Virus record (IMG/VR): IMGVR_UViG_3300012936_000009
Location: 1 to 64,000 of that record
Strand: one strand, 5' to 3'
DNA: 64,000 nucleotides
Source of the DNA: a virus
Positions 1 to 46,757 of the stretch are shown one piece after another (the first letter of the stretch is position 1; each line of letters begins with the position of its first letter). The translations under genes and the position numbers were made by a program. A model generated the notes under the pieces. That model was given only the letters and a program-made list of their open reading frames with translations, made no database searches and was not told where the DNA came from.

Positions 1-600
1 GTCTTTATATATTCCGCCCTTGTAATTTGAGAATCCCCAAGAGTTAAGAAAGAATCCAGAAGAAGTATCAGCATAGAGAATTATCGGCAGTGTATTCTTT
101 TGATACTGAGTGGTAAAACTTCTAGCAACTTTAAAATCGTTTGTCCAAGAACTAACTTGACCATACTTCCCTTTTGACTTGTAAGTAAAAGATGCGGGTA
201 CGGGTTCATTCCAATCGTATGCTGACCTATTACCGGTAACATCATCCGGCAGTTGCTCTAGTGCTTGGGGTGCGTTCCGCTTCAACCATTTATATGATAC
301 CCTCATGCCTCTCATGACCTGTGTACCTTCAACTCGCGCAAAAGTAGTCGGATAATCTCCAGATGCTATGATCTGCTTAATTGCAGCAACTGATTCTGCG
401 TCAAGTGGGGAATCTCCTTTTTTGATCATGTAGCTTGAAGCTGAGAAATGTCTGTGCAGTTGCTGATACAGTTTTTTCTCTATCTCAGTGTCAGGCTCGT
501 CAATTAGCTCTAAACCCTTTGCTGCCGTTGGCCAAGCGTACTTGCCGAGAATACCCTCTTCCTTCAGCAGCTCCCTTATGTACTCGCGCAGTAGTTTCAT
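1..600 (-). CDS. Alt-like mono-ADP-ribosyltransferase, N-terminal 200 aa (runs off the window)
   Basis: The frame is open from an ATG at 600 to the window edge, so the 3' end of the gene is missing. The protein begins with the LREYIRELLKEE helical tag. From about residue 35 (EPDTE) it aligns by eye with the C-terminal half of the gene at 4136-5371. Shared blocks are an Arg motif (VMRGMR, R97), an S-S-W-T motif (150-153, equivalent to the STS motif of R-S-E ADP-ribosyltransferases) and ILYADTS (174-180). The expected ExE catalytic motif would lie beyond base 1. T4 Alt, a packaged ART that modifies host RNA polymerase, is the obvious functional parallel. Its ATG overlaps the stop of the preceding gene (TAATG). 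The fold call is fairly sure; activity cannot be judged without the ExE. Confidence 0.75.
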   Translation of the reverse strand, partial: MKLLREYIRELLKEEGILGKYAWPTAAKGLELIDEPDTEIEKKLYQQLHRHFSASSYMIKKGDSPLDAESVAAIKQIIASGDYPTTFARVEGTQVMRGMRVSYKWLKRNAPQALEQLPDDVTGNRSAYDWNEPVPASFTYKSKGKYGQVSSWTNDFKVARSFTTQYQKNTLPIILYADTSSGFFLNSWGFSNYKGGIYKD

Positions 601-1106
601 TAGTTTGTCCTCACGAATATTAGCTGGCCTGAGCTAGCACCGAACTGTTGCCCTAAAGAACTCCACACACGTCCCGCATCGGCTGAGGTAGAACCTGCAG
701 AATCGCATGCGTCTGATCCAATAAACACACCACCGCTAGACCTTGCGTATTGAATTGCTTGATCAATGGCTGCCTGATATATCAATCTACCGAAACCTTT
801 CCCTCTGTCAGCTTCGTTGGGGATCCAGACGTTATTTGTTACGTACATCTTTGGCGACCAACTCCACTTGCTTGTCGCCTCGTGCTGTTCTTTGGCTGCA
901 AGGTACTCCGGAGATTGTTCAAGTTCCATAACATTTTCTTGACAGTTCGAGTACCTTCGAGTTGAGTTGACCTCTGCATACCCTACCATTCTACCGTCTA
1001 CACTGAGATTGACCCTAAAGTAATCATCGTTTGAACCCCTGTGCAGAGAAACAGAACTGGATTCCTCGGTCAGTAACTCTCTTATGTATTCGCGTAGTAG
1101 ATTCAT
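600..1106 (-). CDS. GNAT-like acetyltransferase with N-terminal LREYIRELL tag
   Basis: This 168-aa protein starts with the tag MNLLREYIRELLTEE. The rest contains a GNAT motif A (acetyl-CoA pyrophosphate loop R/Q-x-x-G-x-G/A) as RGKGFGRLIY at residues 101-110, preceded by a beta-strand-like VWIPNEAD. The tag has an L-T-E that fits the T4 prohead protease rule (I/L)-x-E. It lies between the partial ADP-ribosyltransferase and another GNAT-like protein that carries the same tag, which suggests a set of co-delivered modifying enzymes. The substrate cannot be inferred. The GNAT call rests on one motif and overall size. Confidence 0.6.
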   Translation of the reverse strand: MNLLREYIRELLTEESSSVSLHRGSNDDYFRVNLSVDGRMVGYAEVNSTRRYSNCQENVMELEQSPEYLAAKEQHEATSKWSWSPKMYVTNNVWIPNEADRGKGFGRLIYQAAIDQAIQYARSSGGVFIGSDACDSAGSTSADAGRVWSSLGQQFGASSGQLIFVRTN

Positions 1107-1672
1107 TTTATATCAATCATCCCCATCTCTTTGAGCTTGTCGATAACTGGTGTTCCGGCTTTTCTGTACATCCTACTCAAGGAAGAATCTTCATACCTGA
1201 GCGCGTCGTCGTCATCCATCACTGATTCACTCTCACAGTTGTCCTGCTCATCCGGGGTTAGCTTGTTGAACATGTCGTCCAATTGAGTCTTAAAAACATC
1301 TGGTCTCCTATTGTCATAGTACTGCCAGACGGCGCGAGCTTCCCTACTGACTGACAACCTGTCTGGAATTAGCCCACCAGAATATTCGATCGCGATATCA
1401 TAAAGTAGTGGACCGTATCCACCCTGCGCCTCTGTTTGAGTTATTATCATTCCTCCTAGGCATGGACCGTGCATTGTAGCATTCGGCTGTCTCCAAGACA
1501 CACTTCCATAGTGCATTTCATTGTTCCGGATATACACAACTCCGCCGTTACCGTGATCTTTCAGAGTGATCCACATGCCCTCGTTCTTGGCGATCTTTAT
1601 GTACTTCTCAATACTTTGGTGGATAGCAGATTCAGTCAGCATCTCTCTTATATACTCGCGTAACAACCTCAT
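1103..1672 (-). CDS. GNAT-like protein with N-terminal LREYIREML tag
   Basis: This 189-aa protein begins MRLLREYIREMLTES. The central block GGYGPLLYDIAIEY (84-97), followed by LIPDRLSVSREARAVWQYY, is a pattern I know from phage proteins usually placed in the GNAT fold; GYGPLLY stands at the acetyl-CoA loop. The C-terminal third is acidic (DDDDALRYED). The stop overlaps the next start by 4 bases (ATGA). No substrate is evident. The tag is almost identical to those of the two genes downstream, also at the DNA level. Confidence 0.55.
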   Translation of the reverse strand: MRLLREYIREMLTESAIHQSIEKYIKIAKNEGMWITLKDHGNGGVVYIRNNEMHYGSVSWRQPNATMHGPCLGGMIITQTEAQGGYGPLLYDIAIEYSGGLIPDRLSVSREARAVWQYYDNRRPDVFKTQLDDMFNKLTPDEQDNCESESVMDDDDALRYEDSSLSRMYRKAGTPVIDKLKEMGMIDIK

Positions 1673-1679
1673 GTAAACC

Positions 1680-1832
1680 TCAGTACGGACAGTGGCGGCA
1701 ACCGGAATTACAGCACCAGCCCCTCTCCCACAAATATTGCTCAGTCATGACTTGGTGCCCAGTATCCGGATCAATATAATAATGTTTCCCGTCTAGTACA
1801 GCTTGATCGTGCAATTCTTTAAAATTTCTCAT
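1680..1832 (-). CDS. Small Cys/His-rich protein, DUF5522-like
   Basis: This 50-aa frame runs from ATG 1832 to TGA 1680. It ends with ERGWCCNSGCRHCPY, which matches the conserved C-terminal pattern (RGyCCgsgCrHCPY) of the small bacterial family DUF5522, and it carries FDPDTG-like and VMTEQY segments typical of that family. Its ATG overlaps the stop of the upstream gene (TGATG) and its stop lies 8 bases before the next ATG, so it fills the gap exactly. The four Cys and one His suggest metal binding. Function is unknown. Confidence 0.7.
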   Translation of the reverse strand: MRNFKELHDQAVLDGKHYYIDPDTGHQVMTEQYLWERGWCCNSGCRHCPY

Positions 1833-2461
1833 CAGCTAGGATTTCCTAAAATAATCTTTGTCGAAGATTTGCCACCGAATTTCTTAGTGTACCAACCCCT
1901 CACACTTTTGAAAAGCGGAGGAGCGTTTGGATCAGGATGCTCTCCATGAAAAATATAGTCGTCACCCGAAAGAAGCTGAGCAACTTTTGATTCATCTTCT
2001 ACAGCAATAGCCCCTCTTTTCAGCATAGCGTAAGCCGGCTTTCCAGAAACTTCTCCCCACCAATTTCCAATTCCCGCTATAGAACCTCCAGCGCGTAGTT
2101 GAGCTGATTTGCTTTTGTACTCGGCAGAAGCGGCAGGAGAACCGTCATTTGCTGCGGCTCCCATCTTTACACCGGCGATGTCTGGTTTACCCATTATCGC
2201 GACATCTATATCTGGATCATCATCAATGTCTTTAACGACCCAATAGGTGTATCTTTCTAAACTGTCTGGAGAAGATATTTTGAAGTGACCGCCAATAGGT
2301 TCATAAGTCTGCTGAACAAGATCAAATAGATTTTGCTTTACTAATTCTCTTCTGGGATCTCCCGCGGCAAGCAGAGTCCATTGATTTTCTGGAACTACTC
2401 CGCCAGCTTCAATTAGCGATTCTCTAATAATTCTTCTAAGCTGTCTTTTCGTGATTTTCAC
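1832..2461 (-). CDS. Unknown protein with N-terminal KRQLRRIIRES tag
   Basis: I place the start at GTG 2461. It follows AAAGGA with good spacing, lies just after the upstream stop, and gives a protein beginning (M)KITKRQLRRIIRES in register with its neighbours. An upstream in-frame ATG (2503) would overlap the previous gene by 31 bases. After the tag the 209-aa protein has YTYWVVKDIDDDPDIDVAIMG, then a Gly/Ala-rich block and a C-terminal FHGEHPDPNAPPLFKSVRGW. I do not recognise the domain. As a probable payload of the tag system it may be an enzyme. Confidence 0.7.
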   Translation of the reverse strand: MKITKRQLRRIIRESLIEAGGVVPENQWTLLAAGDPRRELVKQNLFDLVQQTYEPIGGHFKISSPDSLERYTYWVVKDIDDDPDIDVAIMGKPDIAGVKMGAAANDGSPAASAEYKSKSAQLRAGGSIAGIGNWWGEVSGKPAYAMLKRGAIAVEDESKVAQLLSGDDYIFHGEHPDPNAPPLFKSVRGWYTKKFGGKSSTKIILGNPS

Positions 2462-2472
2462 TCGTTTTTCCT

Positions 2473-3081
2473 TTAACGCAAGTTTATCGCTGTCATCTGC
2501 CATGTATCACTTGGTCGACCGTACATATCAGATTTCTCTGCGAATTCTGCTTTATTGTTACGACCGCTTGGGAACAAATAAACATTACCTCCGCCTGTCT
2601 CAACTATCCATGACTGACCTGAAAATGGAGAATCTGTGCCGGTGTAAGGATTAACAGATTTAATCTCTTCAGGCTGAACTCCTGCCGTAATGTCTAGTAT
2701 GTCATGCATTCTTCTCGTGTTAAGTTTCGGTTGTGCCTTTGGTTTCCCACCGCCGATATACATTGTCTTATGGCTTTTCCAAGAACCACCGCCTGATCGT
2801 TTAAACCCATATTGTTTGAGAGTAACCTTAGAACCTGCTGGAAGTGAGCGAATCATATTTTCAAACGCAGGACCTTTTTTAGCATAATCAGCAGCTGCGT
2901 CCTGAGTAATATCAAGGCCCATCATTGGCTTAATACCGGCGTAAGCGACTTTTCCGTCAACATCAACTCGGTTGCCTGGAGTCTTGGCCCAATTGATTAT
3001 TTCATCAACTTGGTTACCAGGCTGCTCAAGTAAAATGCTCTCTCTGATTATTTTTCTAAGTTGTCGCTTAGTGATTTTCAT
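2473..3081 (-). CDS. Unknown protein with N-terminal KRQLRKIIRES tag
   Basis: This 202-aa protein starts MKITKRQLRKIIRESILLEQ, which contains I-R-E and L-L-E, both fitting an (I/L)-x-E cleavage rule. The body is soluble, glycine-rich and basic in the middle (KRSGGGSWKSHKTMYIGGG). It has LNTRRMHDILDITAGVQPEEIKSV and a beta-rich C-terminus (SWIVETGGGNVYLFPSGR). I do not recognise the family. It abuts the next gene upstream without a gap. Confidence 0.7.
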   Translation of the reverse strand: MKITKRQLRKIIRESILLEQPGNQVDEIINWAKTPGNRVDVDGKVAYAGIKPMMGLDITQDAAADYAKKGPAFENMIRSLPAGSKVTLKQYGFKRSGGGSWKSHKTMYIGGGKPKAQPKLNTRRMHDILDITAGVQPEEIKSVNPYTGTDSPFSGQSWIVETGGGNVYLFPSGRNNKAEFAEKSDMYGRPSDTWQMTAINLR

Positions 3082-3729
3082 TTATCTACTCCCGTAGTAT
3101 TTTCCAGCAAACGCGCCTTTAAGTTTTCTCGGATCGAGCTTCTTACCTCGACCGCTATCACTTGGTGCTTGCATTTTGGGCAAACCAGCATCCATCTGTG
3201 CCTCGTTGTATCCCATCATGTAATCTTCATCAGGAAACTGTGGACGTATTCCAGCTAATGAATCCTCTCTGCCCTGGTCATACATGGATACTTCTTCCAT
3301 GGCTTCTCGGATAATTCTTCTTAGTTGCCGTTTGGTGATTTTCATTTTGCTTTCCTTAATTCCGGCCGGCAGCCCCAAGGAATAATAACTTAAGTCTAAA
3401 AGACCACCATTAGCCATGCGGACATCCGGAACATCATCAAAAGTCTTACCTTCTTCAGCCGCCTTTATTTTTGCGGCGTCTACTGTATCGGCTAATCGAT
3501 TGACTTCGCCGTATTCGCCCCATATATCTTCCTCTTCATATAGACCAGTGTTAAGCCTGTTTTGAATGAAACTTGCTGTTTCGTATGCGTCGTTTCTTAG
3601 TTGGTTGAAGGTCATTTGTGCGGCCATTTGATCTCGTTCTTTCCGACGCCGATCATACTTTCCTTCTGATACTAGGGTGGCTTTCTCTTCTCGAATGATT
3701 CTTCTTAGTTGTGTTTTTGTGATTTTCAT
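3082..3729 (-). CDS. Two-tag ORF: tag, unknown domain, tag, short unknown domain
   Basis: This single 215-aa frame contains two copies of the tag: MKITKTQLRRIIREEK at residue 1 and MKITKRQLRRIIREAM at residue 129. The second copy starts with an in-frame ATG (3345) preceded by AAGGAAAGCAAA, a good ribosome-binding site. An 87-aa protein (3082-3345) could therefore be made on its own. A TAA overlapping that site lies one frame away, as if a small indel had fused two genes. The first domain is acidic and helical (YDRRRKERDQ, GLYEEEDIWGEYGEV). The second has DQGREDSLAGIRPQFPDEDY. Neither is recognised. Confidence 0.7.
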   Translation of the reverse strand: MKITKTQLRRIIREEKATLVSEGKYDRRRKERDQMAAQMTFNQLRNDAYETASFIQNRLNTGLYEEEDIWGEYGEVNRLADTVDAAKIKAAEEGKTFDDVPDVRMANGGLLDLSYYSLGLPAGIKESKMKITKRQLRRIIREAMEEVSMYDQGREDSLAGIRPQFPDEDYMMGYNEAQMDAGLPKMQAPSDSGRGKKLDPRKLKGAFAGKYYGSR

Positions 3730-4139
3730 CTTCTTGGTAACCTCGTGTTTTGTGGTGGTTCTCCCGGGCCGAGATAAACCACGTCTAGCTCGGGCATTTC
3801 GCCGGGTTCATCAGCCAGCGCTAACCTGTAGTCAAAGTACTTGCGAGTCGCTTTGCCCCGGTCTACATAATCAACCTCGCCGGTCATCGGGCTGACCCCT
3901 ATTACAACTACAGGCTTTCCGTTTAAAGATAAATTATCACCTGGCTGTAATTGTCTAAATTGTTCAGGCGTAGTAAGAGATTCAGAAGTCTTTAATTTAG
4001 TAGCCAACGCTCTTTTTGCAGCTAACTCTTTTTCCTTCCTAACTTGGAACGATGACTTACGCCCGCCAGTCAATTCAGGAACTTCTGTGGACAGGGCTTC
4101 TCTAATAACTCTTCTTAGTTGTCGCTTTGTGACTTTCAC
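3726..4139 (-). CDS. Unknown protein with N-terminal KRQLRRVIREA tag
   Basis: This 137-aa protein begins MKVTKRQLRRVIREALSTE. After a basic linker it has PGDNLSLNGKPVVVIGVSPMTGEVDYVDRG, which reads like a small beta-barrel (SH3/KOW-like), then a Pro-rich C-terminal tail (GPGEPPQNTRLPRR). Overlap with both neighbours is 4 bases. Function unknown. GC content of this gene is visibly higher than that of genes further along the operon. Confidence 0.65.
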   Translation of the reverse strand: MKVTKRQLRRVIREALSTEVPELTGGRKSSFQVRKEKELAAKRALATKLKTSESLTTPEQFRQLQPGDNLSLNGKPVVVIGVSPMTGEVDYVDRGKATRKYFDYRLALADEPGEMPELDVVYLGPGEPPQNTRLPRR

Positions 4140-5371
4140 TTTGGTCTCCTTAAATCTATTTCAGTTTGGACTTCAGCCCACTGTTCCTCCGTGACTTCTT
4201 TGTAAACCTTAACCGCCGTTACGGTCACAGAACCAAATGCTGCTACTTCTTTTTCGTGGCTGTGCTTACTTAGCTTTCCATATTTATATAGTTCGCTGAA
4301 ATCTAAGAAATCATTTTGACTAGCGTCAGCGTACAGGATCACACCAGCGTTACCACCCCAGAGGTCGGCATTCTTTTTCGCAAATCTAGTACACACCCTA
4401 TCGCTGTCTGTTGACCATGAAGACACTTTGTTGCCGGACTTAGGGGAATATTCAAATGGGGGAATGGAGACCTTCTGGGTCATTGCCTCGAACTTCTGAA
4501 ATGCATGTGTACGGCCTGTTGCACTCTCAAGTGGCAAGTCATCAAAGCCAGGTATGAGACTCCTGGCTTCTTCTAGGCTCATTCTGGTTCCTCTGCAAAC
4601 TTCACCTGCTGAATGCCTGATAAATACATCGTTATAGTCAGGGTCGTCCATGAATCGCAGTATATAAGGACCAAGTTCTCCCAGTTCTTTTGAGGATACA
4701 TCACCGACAAATAAGTGGTGTGTGATCGCACGTTTCAGGCTGGTCTCTAACTCAGTATCCGGTTCATCTCCAGCGTGGCGAGAACCTTCAGGGGCAGATT
4801 GAGAGAACACTTGTTTGCCGAGCTCACCCTTCTCTTTCAGCAACTCCCTTACGTACTCTTCCATAAGGCCCATACTTTTATACCAACTGTGAAGCTCTTC
4901 GTTCGCATCTTCGCCTGTCCATGTTTTGTCAATTCCATTCATATAACCACGAGACTTAGAAGTCCCGTCTTGGTGAGTATTTTTCTTGTTAGCTTTGATA
5001 CTGAACTCGAGCATCGACTTCACATAGTGACGAACTAGAGATTCATTCTTTTTAGCAGTTTTCTTCTTTAACTTTTCCAGGTGATCAGACCATATCTTAT
5101 ATGCCGCGTTTAAATTTTTCTTTTTCTCTGGATCTTTAGTTCTTTCTTTGGCGACTTTAGCGCGCTGCTTCATGACTAGGGTTGCCTGAACTTTGTGGGC
5201 GTGAGTTCTCTTTGCCTTATTGACCGTAGCTACTCCCTTTCTAGCGGTAGCAGCATCTTTAAAACCAAGACCCCTTATGGTTCCCTCTTCTCTCTCATTG
5301 GTGTAGAGATCGGAATGATTAGGGCTACCTGTGTGCTGGCCCTTTTTTCTTGGTTTTCTTTTTTCGGCCAC
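4136..5371 (-). CDS. Fusion of a basic HSDLYT-type domain, tag and R-S-ExE ADP-ribosyltransferase
   Basis: This 411-aa protein has a GTG start 7 bases after the upstream stop. Residues 1-110 are a basic domain (GSPNHSDLYTNE, GTIRGLGFKDAATA, THAHKVQA) of a type I have seen in marine phage proteins, without known function. A tag-like SLVRHYVKSMLEF follows, and at 167-186 a clear LREYIRELL-type tag (MGLMEEYVRELLKEKGELGK). Residues 200-411 form an ADP-ribosyltransferase: Arg motif CRGTRM (R260), SSWST (317-321, STS equivalent), ILYADAS, and ExE as E373-K-E375. The full R-S-E set suggests it is active. T4 Alt, a packaged, protease-processed ART, is the functional parallel. The target is unknown. 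Confidence 0.75.
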   Translation of the reverse strand: MAEKRKPRKKGQHTGSPNHSDLYTNEREEGTIRGLGFKDAATARKGVATVNKAKRTHAHKVQATLVMKQRAKVAKERTKDPEKKKNLNAAYKIWSDHLEKLKKKTAKKNESLVRHYVKSMLEFSIKANKKNTHQDGTSKSRGYMNGIDKTWTGEDANEELHSWYKSMGLMEEYVRELLKEKGELGKQVFSQSAPEGSRHAGDEPDTELETSLKRAITHHLFVGDVSSKELGELGPYILRFMDDPDYNDVFIRHSAGEVCRGTRMSLEEARSLIPGFDDLPLESATGRTHAFQKFEAMTQKVSIPPFEYSPKSGNKVSSWSTDSDRVCTRFAKKNADLWGGNAGVILYADASQNDFLDFSELYKYGKLSKHSHEKEVAAFGSVTVTAVKVYKEVTEEQWAEVQTEIDLRRPK

Positions 5372-5378
5372 TTTCTTC

Positions 5379-6029
5379 TCACATCATCGCTGCAGCCATA
5401 GCATTATTAGCTTTCTTCTTAGAAGCATAACAAGCTCTAGCTTTCATTTTAATCTTGCCTGACTTTGTTCTCTTAACACTGCCGGCTTTTTTTCCTTTAT
5501 ACAATTTAGGATTATTCTCTTTGTCTTTCTTCGTGACTTTGTCGTCAACGTAGGCACAATACTGGTTCCCGCGTTTTCTGACATCTTCCTCAATAACTTC
5601 GCGAATAATTTTTCTGAGCTCTGCTTCGGTTATCTTACCTTCGTTTGCTGGAAAAAGAGTTCTCATCATGGTTCCAAAAAAACCTGGAAACACCACTTTG
5701 CTTAGCGCAAAAAGAGCATCGCCATTGTTGACCATTAAAACTTCTTCCCAGTTAGAAGGAACATCTTTCTCATAACCGTCTTTTATTAACTTTTCAATCT
5801 TTTTCCTGAGTTTATCTGTAAGTTTAGCTCGTTCCGCTGTCGTTCCCTTAAAAGAGCCTTTTACAATATCAGCTCTAGTAATCGGATCACTTCTCCTTCG
5901 CCTTTCCCGAGGAGAAGCAGATGGCTCATCTCGAGAATCCATGCTGTCCCGAACTGATTTTTGTATCATATTACGCATGGCCATGTTTTCTCGGATAATT
6001 CTTCTAAGTCTTTTCTTGGTAATTTTCAT
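5379..6029 (-). CDS. Two-tag ORF: KKRLRRIIRE tag, unknown domain, ELRKIIRE tag, basic domain
   Basis: This 216-aa protein starts MKITKKRLRRIIREN. A second tag, GKITEAELRKIIREVIEED, is at 131-149 with no start codon of its own, so it is part of the same polypeptide. The first domain is Arg-rich (RERRRRSDP) and helical. The part after the second tag (150-216) is strongly basic with several Cys and Tyr (NQYCAYVDDK, RACYASKK), so it could bind DNA or RNA. The arrangement looks like two payloads separated by a processing site. Neither domain is recognised. Confidence 0.65.
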   Translation of the reverse strand: MKITKKRLRRIIRENMAMRNMIQKSVRDSMDSRDEPSASPRERRRRSDPITRADIVKGSFKGTTAERAKLTDKLRKKIEKLIKDGYEKDVPSNWEEVLMVNNGDALFALSKVVFPGFFGTMMRTLFPANEGKITEAELRKIIREVIEEDVRKRGNQYCAYVDDKVTKKDKENNPKLYKGKKAGSVKRTKSGKIKMKARACYASKKKANNAMAAAMM

Positions 6030-6979
6030 TTTTTCTTCTTTGCTTTAGACTTCTTAACGACGGCCCATGGTTTAGATGGTGTTGCTGCGTTGACTCGGGC
6101 ATGAGCCCATTGGTGCTGGCTCATGCCTTTCCTAGAACCTGACGTAGCCCAAGCAGCTAGTCCCTTCCGATACTCTGCGTAAACCGAACCCGGAGTCAAA
6201 CCACGTTTTTCAGCTTTCTTTTTTAAGGTAGCCTTTGTCGTGTCTGACAGTTTTCCGGAGGAAGACTTTTTCTTCGCTTTCTTTCTTTTCTTTTTCTCTT
6301 CAATTATTTCTTCGTGAAGCATTTCACGAATATAATCCCTGAGGACTGACTCTTTTTTAGTATCTTTACGAGGGGTGTTTTTGAAATTTGGATCATCGGC
6401 AGCTTGTTTTTCCATTCTTGCTCTCCTGTCATACGCTCTCTGAATGCGCTTAGGATCTCCGCTGGCTAAATCAGCTTTCGTAGCATCTAATTTTTTAGCC
6501 CTCTTGCTTCCTCGAGAAGCGCTATAATGAGGGTCGTGAGTCTTAGTAGACTCTCCAACAATCTCTTTTGCCTTTTCTTTAGACATTTTGACTGGATGCT
6601 CTTTGTCTCCAATTTTAACTTTATCTTTTCCATCTAAAGCAGCTTGAGCTACCTTGTAAGTAAAAGCATCTTCATCGACTTCGGCTTCAGACTTCAGAGC
6701 CTTTTCATCTTTTTGTTCGTAAATTTTAACTACCAGCTTCGTTTTTCCACGAAGCAAGCGGTGGTATTGTTCGGCCGGGATATGAAAACGATCACCCTCT
6801 CGTAAAAGAACGGGCAATCTATTATCTCTTTGGAACTTCCAACCAGAGCCGGAAATCACTTCAACGATTCTGTCGTTTTTATCTCTATGCCAAATAAGTT
6901 CATCTTGATGAGTGTCGCTACTGAACTCTCTAAGCAGAACGTTTTTCATAATTGTTTTTTGTTTAAAAGGATAATTCAT
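6026..6979 (-). CDS. Cupin-like N-domain, internal LRDYIREML tag, Lys-rich C-domain
   Basis: The ATG at 6979 follows the upstream stop by 2 bases with GGTGG in front; a TTG at 6991 is less likely. The N-terminus contains MKNVLLREF, a tag-like start. The next 60 or so residues read as a cupin-type beta barrel (ELIWHRDKNDRIVEVISGSG, LLREGDRFHIPAEQYHRL). After a basic linker comes the internal tag SVLRDYIREMLHEE, then a Lys-rich tail and a C-terminal module (YAEYRKGLAAWATSGSRKGM, QHQWAHARVN) resembling a phage family I recall as DUF5824-like. The product may be processed at the internal I-R-E / L-H-E sites. Enzymatic role unknown. Confidence 0.65.
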   Translation of the reverse strand: MNYPFKQKTIMKNVLLREFSSDTHQDELIWHRDKNDRIVEVISGSGWKFQRDNRLPVLLREGDRFHIPAEQYHRLLRGKTKLVVKIYEQKDEKALKSEAEVDEDAFTYKVAQAALDGKDKVKIGDKEHPVKMSKEKAKEIVGESTKTHDPHYSASRGSKRAKKLDATKADLASGDPKRIQRAYDRRARMEKQAADDPNFKNTPRKDTKKESVLRDYIREMLHEEIIEEKKKRKKAKKKSSSGKLSDTTKATLKKKAEKRGLTPGSVYAEYRKGLAAWATSGSRKGMSQHQWAHARVNAATPSKPWAVVKKSKAKKKK

Positions 6980-6981
6980 AT

Positions 6982-7545
6982 TTACCACCAACCCGGAATA
7001 TTTCTTCCGAACATCTTAGTTAAACGACACGACCAGTACCCTGGCGCTGTCTTGTCTGTTTTATCAGCGCAGTTGTGTCTATCGCCGAAATTCTTTCTTC
7101 TTTTTTTAGCTTCATCGCTATCACCCATCGCGGTCGACATATCTGAACCAAATGTTACTGGTTTGACTTTTCCAGTTTTTGGATCTCTTACATAGACTTT
7201 CGCTTTCCCTCCACCGGCACGCTGAGCTCCTTTAGCTCCTAAGGTCACTTCACGACCCTTATATTTTGCTTCAATGAGGACAGGAAAATCTAGAGGGACT
7301 AGTTGTCCTTCGTAGTATCCAAACTTTCCTAAATCGTGTTCGACTACAAAATTGTAATCTTGTTCGTTTAAATCTATCAAACCTTGTTCGTAGTAGAAGC
7401 GGGCTTCATTAAAAATAGAGAAGAACTTTTTAGAGCCTGGGCGGAAAACATTTTCTGATATTGGTATTTTATTCCTGTAGTGAAATATAAAATCTTCTGA
7501 GCAAGATTCTAGAACTAACCTTTTTTTAGATTCATTTATCTTCAT
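6982..7545 (-). CDS. Phage protein with RHNC...YWSC C-terminal motif
   Basis: This 187-aa protein begins MKINESKKRLVLES, a possible variant of the tag. The N-terminal half has FNEARFYYEQGLIDLNEQDY. The C-terminal half has IEAKYKGREVTLGAKGAQRAG, KVKPVTFGSD, FGDRHNC and GYWSCRLTKMFG. That combination recurs in marine phage genomes and is often found near head genes, but I know no assigned function. The conserved Cys pair could bind metal. The gene starts 17 bases after the next upstream gene. Confidence 0.7.
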   Translation of the reverse strand: MKINESKKRLVLESCSEDFIFHYRNKIPISENVFRPGSKKFFSIFNEARFYYEQGLIDLNEQDYNFVVEHDLGKFGYYEGQLVPLDFPVLIEAKYKGREVTLGAKGAQRAGGGKAKVYVRDPKTGKVKPVTFGSDMSTAMGDSDEAKKRRKNFGDRHNCADKTDKTAPGYWSCRLTKMFGRNIPGWW

Positions 7546-12034: not shown

Positions 12035-12309
12035 TACTTTCTAAAAAAATTTTCGTGTGCTCTTTTTCTCCTTTGCCTTTGATCTACTTCTCTCTGGATG
12101 TAACAGATTTCTCGTTCTATAATCTTAGAAGACTTATCATCTTTTTTGGATCTAGATAACCTGAGATTTTTGTTTAGTCTATCGCTAAGAGATCTTATTT
12201 CATCATCACTCTTGTGAGCTAATTCCTCCCAATTGACGTTGATAATAACGATGGGATCGTTTCTCCGATCCTTCTTTTCTGGCTTTCTACTATTTCTGCT
12301 ATTTTTCAA
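12034..12309 (-). CDS. Small basic unknown protein
   Basis: The likely start is TTG 12309, preceded by CAGGAG and overlapping the groEL stop by 11 bases; a TTG at 12333 is also open. The product of about 91 aa is strongly basic at both ends (NSRNSRKPEKKDRRN; RQRRKRAHENFFRK) with a helical charged centre, so nucleic acid binding is possible. Not recognised. Confidence 0.5.
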   Translation of the reverse strand: MKNSRNSRKPEKKDRRNDPIVIINVNWEELAHKSDDEIRSLSDRLNKNLRLSRSKKDDKSSKIIEREICYIQREVDQRQRRKRAHENFFRK

Positions 12310-13882
12310 GATTCTTCTCCTGGTTTTTAACAACTGCCGCGCAACCGACAGAGAGCAAGTTTAAAGCTGCGCTTGTAGCATTTTCAAGCGCGCTGATAGA
12401 TACCTTAACTGGATCAATAATACCTTCTTTCATAATATTTGAAATTTTTCCAGTACTTGCATCGTATCCAAAATTGTTTTTTGAAGACTTTAATTTCTCT
12501 AAGATAACTTCTGGTACATCACCAGCGTTTTTAGAAATCTGATAAACTGGCATCTTAAGAGCTTGTGAAAGTATTTGATAACCTATGTCTTTCTTTTTGG
12601 AAATACTTTCGGAAATTCTAAACATAGCTGTTCCGCCTCCTGGGATTATTCCATCTTCTAGCGCAACTCGTGTTGCATTCACAGCGTCATCTACTCTGTC
12701 TCTCCTTTCGTTAACCTCACTTTCCGTCGAGCCCCCTACATAAATTACAGCAACTCCACTAGTCATTCTCTTTCTTCTACGATCTAAAACATTTCTTTCA
12801 TCTATAGAAACATTCGGTTCATCAGCCCTCAATGTGATAGAAGAAATTCTCTGACTAACTAGCTCTTCATTGGAATCGCAATCTACAAAAACGCTCTTAT
12901 CTTTGTATGCTTTGAAGTTCTTGCAACTTCCCAACCTATCGAACAAAGATCCTTTCGGCCAATCCTCAGTATTCTCGTGGATCAACTGAGCTCCTAAAAC
13001 AGCTGCTAGATCTTCCAACGCTTGTTCCCTGGCAATACCAAACTCCGGAGGCCTTAAAACGCAACATTTGAGATTTCCTTTAGATTTATTAAGAATCAAA
13101 CCTTGAAGCGCCTCTCCGGAAACGTCGTTTGCTATAATAACCAGAGGTCGGTCTTTTCTGACGACTTCTTCTAAGACAGGCATGATACTCTTCATGTTTG
13201 TGATATTTTGGTTAGTCAAAAGAATAAAAGGGTTTTTGAAATCTACAGACTGCTTAGATTGATTATTTACAAAATAAGGAGAAATATAACCTCTATCGAT
13301 TTGATATCCGTCAACTAGAACCAATTCAGTGTTGTATCCCTTAGAATTCTCTACGGAAACATAGCCATGAACACCGACTTTACTAACTGCTTCAGAGATG
13401 ATCTCTCCTAAAGATTCTTCTCCGTTCGCAGAAATAGTGGCCACGTTCTTTAAATCTTTCTCGTTCCTAATATCAACCGCTGATTCCTTGAGCAAATTTA
13501 TAGAAAAATCCTTAGCCTCTAAAAGAGACTCTCTTAGATCTCTTATGTTTCCACCGGTCGAAAGGTACTTTATTCCCTGTTCAAATATGGCTTGCGCCAA
13601 AACGGTTGACGTAGTCGTACCATCTCCCGCTATTTCGGCAGTTTGCCTCGCTGCTTCTTTCACAACTTGAGCGCCGAGGTTTTCAAATCTATCAACTAAA
13701 TTGATAGCTTCCGCTACAGTAACACCGTCTTTAGTTAATATAGGAGGAGCATCTTCAACTTCTATCAAAACGTTTTGACCGCGGGGTCCCATTGTTATCT
13801 TCACAGCGTTAGAGAGTTTTCCTACACCATCTAAAAGAGAAGATCTTAATTCATCTGAATATCTTAAAATTCTTTTTTGCAT
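12299..13882 (-). CDS. groEL: GroEL-type chaperonin
   Basis: This 527-aa protein is collinear with GroEL. Visible features are LSNAVKITMGPRGQNVLIE, the nucleotide-binding AGDGTTTSTVLA (about 85-96), apical-domain VDGYQIDRGYISPYFVN, RVDDAVNATRVALEDGIIPGGG and the final equatorial SALENATSAALNLLSV. It lacks the GGM-rich C-terminal tail. Phage GroELs are known in large phages and may fold capsid proteins without GroES. No convincing GroES/gp31 gene is visible in this window. Activity seems likely since the ATP motifs are intact. Confidence 0.92.
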   Translation of the reverse strand: MQKRILRYSDELRSSLLDGVGKLSNAVKITMGPRGQNVLIEVEDAPPILTKDGVTVAEAINLVDRFENLGAQVVKEAARQTAEIAGDGTTTSTVLAQAIFEQGIKYLSTGGNIRDLRESLLEAKDFSINLLKESAVDIRNEKDLKNVATISANGEESLGEIISEAVSKVGVHGYVSVENSKGYNTELVLVDGYQIDRGYISPYFVNNQSKQSVDFKNPFILLTNQNITNMKSIMPVLEEVVRKDRPLVIIANDVSGEALQGLILNKSKGNLKCCVLRPPEFGIAREQALEDLAAVLGAQLIHENTEDWPKGSLFDRLGSCKNFKAYKDKSVFVDCDSNEELVSQRISSITLRADEPNVSIDERNVLDRRRKRMTSGVAVIYVGGSTESEVNERRDRVDDAVNATRVALEDGIIPGGGTAMFRISESISKKKDIGYQILSQALKMPVYQISKNAGDVPEVILEKLKSSKNNFGYDASTGKISNIMKEGIIDPVKVSISALENATSAALNLLSVGCAAVVKNQEKNLEK

Positions 13883-24624: not shown

Positions 24625-25524
24625 TTAATCTTTTAGCAATCCTGCATTTTTTTGCCAAGTTTCAAACAAATTGTTTGAAGGAGAAAACTTTTCATTTAAT
24701 CTTTTGTAGACAAACCTTCTAATTTCAGATTTAGTTATCTTTCTTTGCTTGCTCTCTTTGGTTTGCGCTAAAACTTGAGCCGCTAAGTCGGGAATCATTT
24801 TTTGAAGTGAATCAAAGTTCTTTTTAGCAAACCTCTTAGATTTAATCAAAGTATCTTCATGCGCTCCTCGCCAGTCTTTTACGGCTTTAGCAACTGCTCT
24901 CTGAACTGCCGCTTTTCCTTTATCGATACCGGTAAAAATTCCATCCTTAAGCTCTTGACTTCTGTTTTTTCTCCTTAGGGTATCTTGGCTAGATTTAGAA
25001 AGAGAAGATTCCCAATCTGAAAGAGCTTTAGAAACAGCATCTTTCGGAGACATCGGCTTAGACTTTACAGCTGCTGCGGCAGCCTTAATTTCTTTAGCGG
25101 GATCAGATTCTGTCTCAGGATTTTCCGGTGGAGCCTCAACTCCCTTTTCTTCTCCCTTTTCTTCTCCCTTTTCTTCCGATTCACCTTCGCCTTTCTTCTC
25201 ATCACCCTTAGCATCGTCTCCTCCCTTCGAAGCTTCTACAGCATCAGATTGAATCGACTTGATAGCATCGGTAGGAACTTGAGCTTTTTCAGCGGTAGCA
25301 GCGGTTTTTTGTGAAGCATCTCGAAGTTGTTTAAGCTGTCCATAAGTTAAGGCCATGAAATCATCAGCTAGTTTATCAGCTGGAAAATCTTCAACAGCTT
25401 CAGCTCCCGGGATTTCTGCAATTTTAGATTTACCCAATAAGCTACCTAATTTAGCCATGAACCCCTTAGGTTTAGAACCTTTGAAAGCTTTGGAAACTCC
25501 AGATTTTAAGTCGTCGGCAGTCAA
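24625..25524 (-). CDS. Charged helical protein with internal tag-like motif; start uncertain
   Basis: The 299-aa frame opens at TTG 25524, but the coding pattern continues upstream in frame for 20 codons or so (DDVSLDSLDKDKHGLTADDL) with no ATG, GTG or TTG. An ATT at 25570-25572 after GGAAAAG may be the real start. The centre is a low-complexity E/K/G repeat (GEEKGEEKG). Near the C-terminus is RKITKSEIRRFVYKRLNE, similar to the KRQLRRIIRE tag. It could be a head-core or packaged protein. Not recognised. Confidence 0.5.
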   Translation of the reverse strand: MTADDLKSGVSKAFKGSKPKGFMAKLGSLLGKSKIAEIPGAEAVEDFPADKLADDFMALTYGQLKQLRDASQKTAATAEKAQVPTDAIKSIQSDAVEASKGGDDAKGDEKKGEGESEEKGEEKGEEKGVEAPPENPETESDPAKEIKAAAAAVKSKPMSPKDAVSKALSDWESSLSKSSQDTLRRKNRSQELKDGIFTGIDKGKAAVQRAVAKAVKDWRGAHEDTLIKSKRFAKKNFDSLQKMIPDLAAQVLAQTKESKQRKITKSEIRRFVYKRLNEKFSPSNNLFETWQKNAGLLKD

Positions 25525-34154: not shown

Positions 34155-37100
34155 TTATACCTCAAAAACTTTGATTTTTCTAAATTGAGTTGAAAAACCG
34201 AAATCAGACTTATCTAGCTCGGCAACGCAAAGAGAGTATGGGTTAAGAACTGAATCCTCTCTTGTTCCCCAACAGAATATTCTATTCTTTTCTCCGTTAG
34301 AGCCAATTGCCTCAAGCAAAAAGTAGGGTTTTCCATTTTTAGTTTTCTTTTTCATAACCTTTACAACAACTAGCCAGTAAAGATTTTTAGCACTCCACTC
34401 CTCCATCGGAAGAATAGAAAGTTCTTCAAACCTATCTGATAACTTGCTTGGAATTACATTAGCAACGTTTATAGTTCCGAGCAAAGATTCTTCAAACTCC
34501 ATGTTATCTTTAATGTTCCAATCATCATTAGGATAACTGAGTGTTAGTTCACTTAGGTTATCTCGACCTTGAAAAGGGTTTTTCTTAGTACTCTTTCTAA
34601 GCATGCTCCAATTTTCACTTACACAATCATAAAATTGCTTGTAAGATTCGAAATAGCTTTGCCAGTCTAGAGAATCAAGAGCTCTAATTTTCAAAAGAGA
34701 TTCAAGAGTTTTCTTATTTAACTTCGAATGTTTCCACTTTCCGTCTTCGTTCCAAAAAAGATCATCGATACTTTGATAAGGGCGATTGGCCAAGATTTCC
34801 TCTATAGCCGCCTCGCCGATACCTTTGCAAGAGAAGAAAGACGGCATCAAAACCTTTTCGCTTACTGGAGTCCAGTTCTTACCAGCCTTGTTGATGTCAA
34901 TCTTAGTAGTCGTATATCCCATCTTTTTAACTTCACTTAAAGCTTTCGAAAGTTTATTAGGATTAGATGAAACAGCTTCAAGATATGCAGTTACCCACTC
35001 AGTCTCGTAGTAAGTCATAAGCCAAGCGCAGTAATAAGAATTGATAGCGTAAGAAACCGCATGTGACTTATTGAAACCATAACCAGCAAAATAAAGAATC
35101 TTTTCGTAAAGATCTTCAGCAATATGCTTTTGTACTCCGTTAGCAATAGAGCCAGAAATAAACTTTTCTTGCAAAGCCTTTGCTTTTTCAATATTTTCGT
35201 TTCCAGAACCAACTGGCTTCATCATCTTTCGCATCGCGTTGCATTCATCTTTAGGAATACCAGCAACTACGTGACACAAGTTCATTACTTGCTCTTGAAA
35301 GATAATGCAACCGTAAGTCTCTTTCAAACATTCTTCAATCAAAGGGTGGCCATACACAACGCTTTCAGGATTCTTTTTAGCGCCAATATAAAGCTTGTCA
35401 ACTTTTGCGCTTAGAGGGCCAGGACGATATATAGAAGTCAAAGTTGCAATATCAACTATTGATTCTGGTTTTGCACGCTTAAACAAGGCCTGAGCACCTC
35501 TCTGTGTACATTGAAATATAGCGGCCCATTTACCAGCATGATAAACGTTTTTATAAACTTTTTGATCATCGAAGTCAATAGTGTTAGTAGACATGTTAGA
35601 ATCAAACCAATCTTTAACTTGACTAAATTCTGGATTTTCAACTCCTTGGCCCTGAAGAATTAACCTAATAGTTTGTTCAATAATTCTTAAAGTTTCTAGA
35701 CCTAGCAAATCAAACTTGATCCAACCAAAACTCTCTAGATGCTTGTAGTTCATACCTTCAACCCAGGGAGTTTGAGCTTCTCCACGAGCTAAAATTAGTG
35801 GCATACGTTCAGCAATTTTTTCAGAAACTATTACACCGCCTGCATGACGACCGAGAGCCTTGTTTTGTTTAAATAGAACCTTTAGAGGATCAAGTATTTC
35901 TGGGTATTTTTCTAAATAGTTACGTAAGGATTCCGAATATTTTAGAGCTTCGTCAATATGAATGTCAAAAGAATCTTCAGACTCAGCATCGTTCTTGCGG
36001 CCGCGTTTTACATCGACTTCTAGAGGAGCTAGCGCCTTGTTAGCTTCTTCGAAAGGAACTCTGTAAAATCTCGAAACGTCCTTAACTAAAGACTTCAGTT
36101 TAAAAGTATTGTAATTAGAAATAGGAATAACATTCAAGTCGCCAAAATTTTCTCGAAGCAAAGATATTAACTCATCTCTATCTCCAACATCAGAATCAAT
36201 ATCTGGCATCTCATTGCGCTCCGGAGAAAGAAACCTTTCGAAAAGCAAACCATTAGAAACTGGATCAACGTCAGTAATACCTAAAACGTAGTTGACTAAA
36301 CTACCAGCACCTGAGCCGCGGCCTGGTCCGATAAGCATCTTCTCTCTCGCAATATCAAGAATAGCTTTCATGGTGATAAAGTATTCCGAGAAATTTTTAC
36401 TCTTTATAACTTTAAATTCTGTGCGAAGCCTATCAATATAAACAGGATCTTCGTGAAGACCACGTTCAACTAAGCCTTTCTTGCAAAAATCTAAAAGAGC
36501 CTGGTTAGCTGTCTTGCCTTTAGGAATTACGTAAGAAGGAAGCTTCATAGAGCGATCCGGGTGGATTTCCCCAATCTCTTCATGAACTACAGAGTGAGTT
36601 CTTTCAATAGCATCAAAAACTTTTTGATCATCGTAAAAAGACATGCCTTTAGTTGTCTCTTTATAAGAATTCCATACTTGCTCTGCGTTCTTTGGGTAAA
36701 GCTCACAAGATAAATCTTCCCTAGATTTAGGCAAAGAATCAGGATCGAAATCTTTGAAATTTAGCCAACCTAATTTTTTGTATATCTCTCTTTCTCTCCA
36801 ATGTTCGGGATGAGCGTAATGAGAATCGCAAGTTACAACTAGCTGATCGGTCAAGTTATGCTCATTAGCAAACTCAATAATAGCCCTGTTGACTAGATGC
36901 TGAGCTGGCAACTTGTTAAATTGCAACTCTAGCATGAGGTTTTTGATCCCTACAGCGTCAGAGAGAGCATCATAAGAATTAGATATACCATTTTGAACCT
37001 TTCTCATAAGAGAAGGATCGTCTAAAAGATTCTGATTTAAATCATTAAATTCAACTTCTTGTAAATGCTTAAAAACTTCATAACTAAGAGGACCTCCTAA

Positions 37101-37736
37101 GCAAGCAGTCGAAATCATAATATGATCACCCTCAGCTGCTTCCTTCAGCATTTTGTAATCAACACGAGGAAAACGGTAAAAACCTTCAAGGTAGCCGCGA
37201 GAAACTAGATTAAAAAGTCGCTGTAGACCAGTCGAAGTTTTCGGAAGAACAACTAAATGATGACGCCTCTTTACTGGGTCATAAAATTTTGCAGACTTTG
37301 ACTCTTCTTCATTTTCGATAGTCAAACTGCCTTCGTCTGTTGAAATGTCAACTGTTTCGTCATCGCCATCAACTTTGGCGAAAAGAGGAGTTCTAATCTT
37401 TTCTCGTTGTTCTTTAAGCTTGAAGATAGCTTCTTTGTCACCTTTCTTTGCAGCTTTAGCTAGTTCATAATCTAAGTTCCAGATATCCAAATCCGGATGA
37501 ACGTACATTTCGCAGCCTGGGACAAATTTGAAGTTTCCTCCTCGTTTGCGAATCTTTTCAGCATGTAGAAACGCATGAGCAAAACTGTTCATATGCCCGT
37601 GATTTGTCAAACACCAGCTATCCATTCCATTCTGCAACACGAAATCGATATGTTCTTGCGGGTATCCTAAACCATCAAAAGTTGAGAATCCATCATGAGC
37701 ATGGAGAGAGGTAAAATTCTTTGGAATTTTATTCAT
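34155..37736 (-). CDS. dnaE: DNA polymerase III alpha subunit (DnaE type)
   Basis: The 1193-aa protein has an N-terminal PHP domain (SLHAHDGFSTFDGL; CLTNHGHMN; VPGCEMYV; RHHLVVLPK; ISTACLGG; VTCDSHYAHPEH) whose metal ligands all seem present. The polymerase core follows: GPGRGSGAGSLVNYVLG, catalytic PDIDSD and KFDLLGLETL, a helix-hairpin-helix region (CKGIGEAAIEEIL) and an OB-like C-terminus. It is likely the replicative polymerase, in place of the T4 family B enzyme. The complete PHP set suggests it may proofread itself. A promoter lies just upstream. Confidence 0.95.
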   Translation of the reverse strand: MNKIPKNFTSLHAHDGFSTFDGLGYPQEHIDFVLQNGMDSWCLTNHGHMNSFAHAFLHAEKIRKRGGNFKFVPGCEMYVHPDLDIWNLDYELAKAAKKGDKEAIFKLKEQREKIRTPLFAKVDGDDETVDISTDEGSLTIENEEESKSAKFYDPVKRRHHLVVLPKTSTGLQRLFNLVSRGYLEGFYRFPRVDYKMLKEAAEGDHIMISTACLGGPLSYEVFKHLQEVEFNDLNQNLLDDPSLMRKVQNGISNSYDALSDAVGIKNLMLELQFNKLPAQHLVNRAIIEFANEHNLTDQLVVTCDSHYAHPEHWREREIYKKLGWLNFKDFDPDSLPKSREDLSCELYPKNAEQVWNSYKETTKGMSFYDDQKVFDAIERTHSVVHEEIGEIHPDRSMKLPSYVIPKGKTANQALLDFCKKGLVERGLHEDPVYIDRLRTEFKVIKSKNFSEYFITMKAILDIAREKMLIGPGRGSGAGSLVNYVLGITDVDPVSNGLLFERFLSPERNEMPDIDSDVGDRDELISLLRENFGDLNVIPISNYNTFKLKSLVKDVSRFYRVPFEEANKALAPLEVDVKRGRKNDAESEDSFDIHIDEALKYSESLRNYLEKYPEILDPLKVLFKQNKALGRHAGGVIVSEKIAERMPLILARGEAQTPWVEGMNYKHLESFGWIKFDLLGLETLRIIEQTIRLILQGQGVENPEFSQVKDWFDSNMSTNTIDFDDQKVYKNVYHAGKWAAIFQCTQRGAQALFKRAKPESIVDIATLTSIYRPGPLSAKVDKLYIGAKKNPESVVYGHPLIEECLKETYGCIIFQEQVMNLCHVVAGIPKDECNAMRKMMKPVGSGNENIEKAKALQEKFISGSIANGVQKHIAEDLYEKILYFAGYGFNKSHAVSYAINSYYCAWLMTYYETEWVTAYLEAVSSNPNKLSKALSEVKKMGYTTTKIDINKAGKNWTPVSEKVLMPSFFSCKGIGEAAIEEILANRPYQSIDDLFWNEDGKWKHSKLNKKTLESLLKIRALDSLDWQSYFESYKQFYDCVSENWSMLRKSTKKNPFQGRDNLSELTLSYPNDDWNIKDNMEFEESLLGTINVANVIPSKLSDRFEELSILPMEEWSAKNLYWLVVVKVMKKKTKNGKPYFLLEAIGSNGEKNRIFCWGTREDSVLNPYSLCVAELDKSDFGFSTQFRKIKVFEV

Positions 37737-45797: not shown

Positions 45798-46757
45798 CTA
45801 GCCTAAATTCCTAACTGCTAAAAAAAATCTTTCTACATCAAAATTCTTAACGCCTATTGCGTTTTGTTCACGAATAAAACCAAGTTTATCCCTTTTTTTA
45901 TCTTTGCAATTTTCAATATAATTTTCCACTTTATGAATTTGAGAAGCTGACAAGTTTCTAATACCTAAATTCATAAGTCTCCAATTTTTTTTCGGTACCT
46001 CTGGATTGCTAGCAATTTCGGAATAAATCTTTAATTTACTGTTAAGATTTTTTTGCTCAGCTAGTCTAATTAGATCGTCTATTAGCAAGCTACTCTCATT
46101 AATTTCCGGGAATCTCTTCACCATACTTTTGAAACCAGCTCCTTTTATACCTTGCAAGTTGTCAGATGGATCTCCAACAAAAGATCTTACTAAACAAAAA
46201 TTTTCTGGATAAACTGAAAATTTCTGCTTCACAGCTTCTTTGTCTACTATCTTCTTCTGGCCAGGCGACCATTGAAGAGTTTTTTCATCTATAAGCTGAT
46301 ATAAATCTTTATCTGAAGATACTACAATTTTGTTTTTATCCCTAAATGAATTCTTGCACATATATCCTATGACATCATCTGCTTCACAGTCAGATATATA
46401 CAATTGGTTTATTCCAGACTTGTTTAAAAGCTTTATCAAGTTAGCAATCTGCCAATTTCTGTTTTCATAAGTATCTGGTATTTCATCTTCTGAGTAAAAC
46501 CTGTTTAGTTTTTGCGGTCGTTTCGTGTGTTTATAAGAAGATTGCAGAGCCCTTCTCCTGGGAGATCCTCCACCTTCCCATACAACATATATTGAAGATG
46601 GAGAAAATCTCTCAGAAAGAAGCTGAATTGCTTTTAAAAACCCAACCATCCCTCCAATGTGTTCACCATTATTAGAAATGGTTGGGTTTGCTATAAAATG
46701 CCTGGTAAACAGGTTTAGAGAGTCTATTATAAGAAGAGGTCTGAAGAATGATTTCAC
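45798..46757 (-). CDS. FEN-type 5'-3' exonuclease (second copy, T4 RNase H-like)
   Basis: The 319-aa protein starts at GTG. Motifs are LLIIDSLNLFTRHF, CEADDVIGYMC, VSSDKDLYQLID and GDPSDNLQGIKGAGFKSMVKRF. A Lys-rich arch-like region (SPRRRALQSSYKHTKRPQKL) is present. Its position next to helicase and RecA favours a role in primer removal at the fork. It shares the family but little sequence with the copy at 14059-14886. Confidence 0.88.
   Translation of the reverse strand: MKSFFRPLLIIDSLNLFTRHFIANPTISNNGEHIGGMVGFLKAIQLLSERFSPSSIYVVWEGGGSPRRRALQSSYKHTKRPQKLNRFYSEDEIPDTYENRNWQIANLIKLLNKSGINQLYISDCEADDVIGYMCKNSFRDKNKIVVSSDKDLYQLIDEKTLQWSPGQKKIVDKEAVKQKFSVYPENFCLVRSFVGDPSDNLQGIKGAGFKSMVKRFPEINESSLLIDDLIRLAEQKNLNSKLKIYSEIASNPEVPKKNWRLMNLGIRNLSASQIHKVENYIENCKDKKRDKLGFIREQNAIGVKNFDVERFFLAVRNLG

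Follow-up and report, generated by a model that had tools for sequence, protein, structure and literature searches.

Internally tagged open reading frames in a marine jumbo phage fragment: putative cargo polyproteins of the phage head

Tagged genes at the left end of the window

The window analysed here is a stretch of 64,000 nucleotides, almost the entire 64,126-base IMG/VR record IMGVR_UViG_3300012936_000009. At its left end (1-7545, minus strand), short genes follow one another in tight succession and most of them start with a recurrent peptide (the tag), two forms of which, MKITKRQLRRIIREA and MNLLREYIRELLTEE, open most genes of this island. An initial annotation, made from the sequence alone, had singled out four ORFs with a tag in their middle, and all four (o1 to o4) appear in the ORF list on the minus strand at 3082-3729, 4136-5371, 5379-6029, and 6026-6979. 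They had been described as consecutive, which is not strictly the case, as a singly tagged gene separates the first two. The island genes beside o1 to o4 carry the tag at the N-terminus. The features of the island are listed below, with relatives given by their record numbers and internal tags with their profile scores.

1-600, minus strand: tagged neighbour gene, truncated where the window ends and paralogous to the o2 C module (ORF list, tag, similarity)
600-1106, minus strand: neighbour gene with the MNLLREYIRELLTEE tag form; weak GNAT acetyltransferase match (ORF list, tag, domain match)
1103-1672, minus strand: neighbour gene with the MRLLREYIREMLTES tag form (ORF list, tag)
1832-2503, minus strand: singly tagged neighbour; its homologue is the final module of a 619-aa fusion in L004 (ORF list, tag, comparison)
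2473-3081, minus strand: singly tagged neighbour (ORF list, tag)
3082-3729, minus strand: o1, 215 aa, with an N-terminal tag (3676-3729) and an internal tag (ORF list, tag profile)
3085-3291, minus strand: o1 C module; a separate tagged 87-aa gene, 91% identical, in L156 (comparison)
3292-3345, minus strand: o1 internal tag MKITKRQLRRIIREAMEE, residues 129-146, score 27.4; possible internal start
3726-4139, minus strand: singly tagged neighbour (MKVTKRQLRRVIREALSTE) between o1 and o2 (ORF list, tag)
4136-5371, minus strand: o2, 411 aa, three modules and two internal tags (ORF list, homology)
4139-4828, minus strand: o2 C module; L090 (86%) and L006/L091 have it as tagged genes of their own (comparison)
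4829-4864, minus strand: second internal tag of o2, MEEYVRELLKEK, residues 170-181, score 10.7; aligns with an N-terminal MKLLREYIRELLREK of L090
4865-5005, minus strand: o2 middle module; a separate tagged 63-aa gene in L090 (comparison)
5006-5044, minus strand: first internal tag of o2, ESLVRHYVKSMLE, residues 110-122, score 2.6, no start codon nearby; its L090 homologue is the N-terminal tag VNLLREYISALLE
5042-5371, minus strand: o2 N module, basic (comparison)
5379-6029, minus strand: o3, 216 aa, with an N-terminal tag (5976-6029) and an internal tag (ORF list, tag profile)
5382-5582, minus strand: o3 C module, lysine-rich; L006, L034 (same as in G003), and L039 have it as a gene of its own, 89-92 aa long (comparison)
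5583-5636, minus strand: o3 internal tag KITEAELRKIIREVIEED, residues 132-149, score 25.0; no start codon nearby
6026-6979, minus strand: o4, 317 aa from the ATG at 6979, consisting of cupin, module B, module C, tag, and DUF5824 module (ORF list, Pfam, model)
6029-6304, minus strand: o4 C module (DUF5824; Pfam PF19141, E 1.9e-7); stands alone as a tagged gene of 108-126 aa in L013, L018, L023, L025, L027, L028, and L029
6305-6349, minus strand: o4 internal tag SVLRDYIREMLHEEI, residues 211-225, score 23.4; no start codon nearby
6356-6532, minus strand: o4 module C; a separate tagged 85-98 aa gene in the same seven records (comparison)
6542-6673, minus strand: o4 module B; a separate tagged 67-aa gene in L016, the full tag missing in front here (comparison)
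6710-6979, minus strand: o4 cupin; a separate gene of ~94 aa in many relatives (domain match, Foldseek, comparison)

The G+C content is 43-45% across window positions 1-6000, compared with ~36-38% in most of the remaining window, as if the modules were of outside origin. The window is collinear with the longer record G003, whose head operon begins ~10 kb beyond the point corresponding to the window's end. By sequence, the ORFs at 12299-13882, 34155-37736, 41918-44386, and 46754-47944 resemble a phage-encoded GroEL, a bacterial-type DNA polymerase III alpha subunit, a large ribonucleotide reductase, and RecA, respectively; checks of these candidates covered collinearity with G001 and G003 and, for RecA, matches to phage RecA/UvsX.

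Internal tags and shuffled modules

A 13-column profile of the tag, trained on N-terminal copies only, from the 724 ORFs of the window, G001 (284 kb) and G003 (281 kb), converged on LRRIIREELAEEQ. At a score of at least 13, N-terminal matches numbered 90 and internal matches 22, with 0.8 and 1.1, respectively, expected after shuffling of the ORFs. The internal tags are thus not due to chance, and the initial annotation was right to place one inside each of the four ORFs. It had overlooked another tag inside o2 (residues 110-122), the weaker of the two in that ORF; both o2 tags are supported by their homology to N-terminally tagged free genes and not by their profile scores. The tag is short and amphipathic, with a core of LRRIIREALxE or LLREYIRELLxE, and is common to unrelated proteins: 76 distinct N-terminal tags score at least 16 in the three records. 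A 280-kb genome encodes some 30 or more tagged proteins, nearly all of them unannotated. A tblastn search of phage records with the bare 23-aa tag gave no useful match.

Tagged genes are clustered at 184-189 kb, 218-230 kb, and 270-284 kb in G001 and at 11-14 kb, 196-207 kb, and 238-243 kb in G003. In both records, the KITK-form and LREY-form tags are mostly found in different clusters, and could represent two targeting classes or two origins. Distant from the island, the window ORF at 24625-25524 has a tag-like stretch, RKITKSEIRRFVYKRLNEKF, near its C-terminus (residue 261); G001 and G003 encode longer homologues of this ORF.

Distinct modules meet at the internal tags, and relatives encode these modules as individually tagged genes. 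Separate genes were found for modules of all four ORFs, in a comparison that the initial annotation had itself suggested as a check. The proposal that each ORF releases two effectors is supported in part but is too simple in number, because o2 consists of three modules and o4 of three or four. 'Effector' is also a guess for most modules, several of which are small and lysine-rich and could be DNA-binding internal proteins. The three-module structure of o2 follows from L090, where the parts after both tags are free genes starting with MKLLREYIRELLREK and VNLLREYISALLE. Its N module is a free gene with a T4-like capsid targeting sequence (CTS) in L094, L096, and L099, and is joined to other C-terminal partners in L004 and L039. 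The cupin, module C, and DUF5824 module of o4 are three separate genes in L013, L018, L023, L025, L027, L028, and L029.

The closely related records L004 and L092 are 85-99% identical to the window across o3 and o4, and at the position of o2 they carry a 619-aa protein (L004 11624-13483, equivalent to L092 8001-9860). This fusion comprises four modules separated by tag-like sequences, namely the o2 N module, an SH3-like piece (named by eye), an HD domain (Pfam HD_4) in third place, and a homologue of the window gene at 1832-2503. In the window, the four are either apart or joined in other ways. The SH3-like piece opens another protein in G003, where it follows LRKLVSLLLE. The HD domain is possibly a nucleotide-signal hydrolase used as payload. 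The modules have been shuffled, the tag usually moving with the module downstream of it.

Useful Pfam and PHROGs matches within o1 to o4 were limited to the cupin, DUF5824, and phrog_28338, and a tblastn search of phage records with the DUF5824 module yielded nothing of use. The cupin matched solved cupins in Foldseek with an E-value of 5e-6. In the AlphaFold2 model of o4 (pLDDT 81, pTM 0.35), the protein falls into separate units and the tag lies within a single long helix; a TTG at 6991, upstream of the ATG, is a possible alternative start. Neither the cupin nor module B has a tag of its own upstream. The cupin, free or fused, is always N-terminal and never preceded by a tag (L013 8812-9132, L018 9998-10282 and similar; window 6710-6979), and would either not be packaged or depend on a tagged partner.

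The o2 C module has ADP-ribosyltransferase-like residues (R..SSWS..EKE), recognised by eye only. Its AlphaFold2 model is poor (mean pLDDT 45), and neither a Pfam nor a PDB profile match was obtained, so that an Alt-like ADP-ribosyltransferase was not adopted beyond the level of the motif. A candidate equivalence between the N-terminal part of o3 and the 122-aa gene adjoining the o3 C module in G003 was rejected, as the similarity was not above that of shuffled sequences.

The main rival to cleavage at the internal tags is internal translation. According to this alternative, which we regard as unlikely, loss of a stop codon fused neighbouring genes in frame, the downstream part is still translated from its own start codon, and the tags serve as N-terminal addresses only, with no need for a cut at the junction. 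Among the 17 strong internal tags of the three records, nine, including that of o1, have a start codon and a Shine-Dalgarno (SD)-like stretch at or just upstream of the tag, and a further four have a start codon but no SD-like stretch. The o1 tag is ambiguous because it opens with an ATG, at its first residue, behind AAGGA; the C half may therefore be translated separately, and o1 is only possibly a polyprotein. The other four strong tags, those of o3 and o4 among them, lack a start codon, and none is present at the first o2 tag or at the strong internal tags of L004 either. Against internal starts also stands the x-Glu motif described below, which is kept at junctions regardless of the tag. 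Internal translation starts and cleavage at tags may both operate.

The hydrophobic-x-Glu site and a route into the head

The motif [ILVMF]xE is present in all 93 distinct strong tags, a count that is partly built in because x-Glu is part of the tag motif. In each of the 16 tags without the usual IRE glutamate, [ILVMF]xE follows a few residues further on. At directly joined internal junctions of the o4 type, x-Glu immediately precedes the DUF5824 module in 13 of 13 cases although the tag sequences differ (ISE/E, LQE/K, INE/E, VVE/A, VRE/A, LNE/A, LLE/K, IRE/E, and LSE/E). When all nonredundant homologues were counted, including those in T4-like contigs without the basic tag, x-Glu coincided with the module boundary in 29 of 42 homologues of the o4 C module and 29 of 48 homologues of the o2 N module, against 14% and 9%, respectively, in control windows taken from these proteins; the homologues do not amount to independent samples.

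The same motif is found in the capsid protein of the relatives. T4 gp23 is cut at FLTE/A, and the major capsid protein of the relatives, a member of the gp23 family, has QVLRE/S, QVLRE/A, QVLRE/V, QVLKE/A or QALRE/S aligned with this site. A gp23-type capsid protein is encoded in all five long records tested, and a gp21-type protease (Peptidase S77) in eight longer relative records, some of which are near-identical. No Peptidase S77 was found in the window record, which is a fragment. In the head operon of the relatives, two small tagged proteins are encoded close to the protease gene. The tag carries, and module starts preserve, the motif that a T4-type prohead protease would be expected to cut.

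Two alternatives in which the junctions are not cut fit the conserved x-Glu less well. In the first, which we consider improbable, the tags are docking helices that bind the scaffold core or another part of the head, internal copies add binding strength, and the fusions remain whole in the virion. The predicted location of the o4 tag within one long helix agrees with this, as does the fact that the T4 CTS also acts through docking to the core (PMC9026906); yet x-Glu is retained at module boundaries even in T4-like contigs that lack the basic tag, and tags that have lost one x-Glu have another. In the second, which has very little probability in our view, the internal tags are fusion scars without function at the junction, or the tag acts somewhere other than the head. 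Gene fusion is clearly common here and an old start codon survives at some junctions, but the junction tags diverge in sequence while keeping their hydrophobic pattern and x-Glu, unlike what neutral decay would produce, and tags also occur on the small head-operon proteins near the protease.

A link to virions comes from cultured Kyanoviridae, in which modules related to those of the window occur. SSM2_109 of phage S-SM2 begins with the o2 N module (41% identical), and Melnitz QZI94972 combines a nucleotidyltransferase with an o4 C-like module and a module like the window gene at 6982-7545. In S-CREM2, gp154 is 37% identical to the Melnitz nucleotidyltransferase and has the N-terminus MKNFSSFLTEADEK, while gp160 has three modules in common with SSM2_109. 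Both proteins were identified in purified virions of S-CREM2, although the authors caution that such proteins may also be carry-over from purification (PMC10665884), and a putative cytidylyltransferase was detected in S-SM1 virions (PMC3037559). These detections are indirect support for a location in the head.

We consider it fairly probable that the island encodes interchangeable cargo for the T4-type head of a jumbo phage, of whose genome the window is a fragment, that its tags act as address and cleavage site, and that the fused ORFs are polyproteins cut by the prohead protease. The tag on most cargo modules would combine a head-targeting address with a hydrophobic-x-Glu site for a protease of the T4 gp21 type (Peptidase S77). 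A given module is a single N-terminally tagged gene in some phages and is fused to other modules elsewhere, and because modules shuffle freely with the tag kept at the junction, o2, o3, o4, and possibly o1 would be multi-cargo polyproteins. These would enter the prohead and be cleaved inside it behind the x-Glu sites, yielding separate payload proteins, which may then be delivered into the host cell. Since the tags resemble head-packaging addresses with a cutting site, a single gene probably supplies the head with several proteins.

In T4-like marine contigs, single ORFs of 1255-1616 aa contain many small modules including that of the o2 N-terminus (L148 750-5600, L149 1137-5111, L150 3142-7551, and L143 613-4380). 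In most of them, hydrophobic-x-Glu-Ala directly precedes the o2 N module, and they could be very long payload polyproteins. A broader proposal, which we find conceivable but lean slightly against, is a general cassette system in marine jumbo and T4-like phages, in which payloads are strung together freely (up to 1616 aa in Kyanoviridae-type contigs) behind interchangeable address-plus-cut tags, and the prohead protease turns them into separate injected proteins in equal numbers.

Comparison with known systems

CTS peptides and polyvalent proteins are already known. Our searches of the open-access literature returned no account of cargo polyproteins whose parts are set off by repeated targeting or cleavage tags, which is weak evidence of absence because only open-access work was searched. 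If cargo polyproteins of this kind are real, the tag would be a sequence handle with which to list, from metagenomes, the proteins likely to be carried in the heads of uncultured marine phages. The prohead protease, whose established role is the trimming of head proteins, would also process multi-cargo polyproteins, and the system would offer a natural model for the packaging of several cargo proteins in a fixed ratio.

In T4, a 10-residue CTS targets proteins to the core and is removed by gp21 (PMC9026906). Like the tag, the CTS of IPI-III and Alt, which is cut by gp21, is a short N-terminal peptide found on many unrelated proteins and ends in hydrophobic-x-Glu, and a gp21-type protease and a gp23-type capsid protein occur within the same phage group as the tagged relatives. 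Unlike the CTS, the tag is longer, basic, different in sequence, present on ~30 or more proteins per genome, and also found inside ORFs between modules. When the tag profile was applied to the N-termini of T4 IPI, IPII, IPIII, Alt, and gp22, the scores were at background; direct membership of the tag in the T4 CTS family was therefore rejected and the CTS is kept as an analogy.

The multi-module ORFs of Kyanoviridae (SSM2_109 and QZI94972) and S-CREM2 gp154 and gp160 share with the window the o2 N, o4 C, and 6982-7545 modules or their neighbours, as well as hydrophobic-x-Glu at module starts. They differ in that their N-terminal peptides are T4 CTS-like (MKxFxxFLxEA) or missing, and in that no basic tag lies between their modules.

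Polyvalent proteins of phages and plasmids contain several unrelated domains per polypeptide that are probably delivered together, and their release has been attributed to peptidase domains within the chain (Iyer et al., 2017; PMC5512222). The combination of unrelated domains in one polypeptide is similar here, with a cupin and DUF5824 in o4 and four modules including an HD domain in the L004 fusion. Here, however, the modules are separated by repeated tags with a prohead-protease-like site, and profile searches found no match to a peptidase family in o1 to o4 or in the L004 fusion.

In phages phiKZ, 201phi2-1, and SPN3US, a prohead protease cleaves many inner-head and ejected proteins on the C-terminal side of Glu (PMC5694885). 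Unlike the tag described here, their propeptides mostly have at least 100 residues, the site is [AS]xE, and each gene encodes one cargo.
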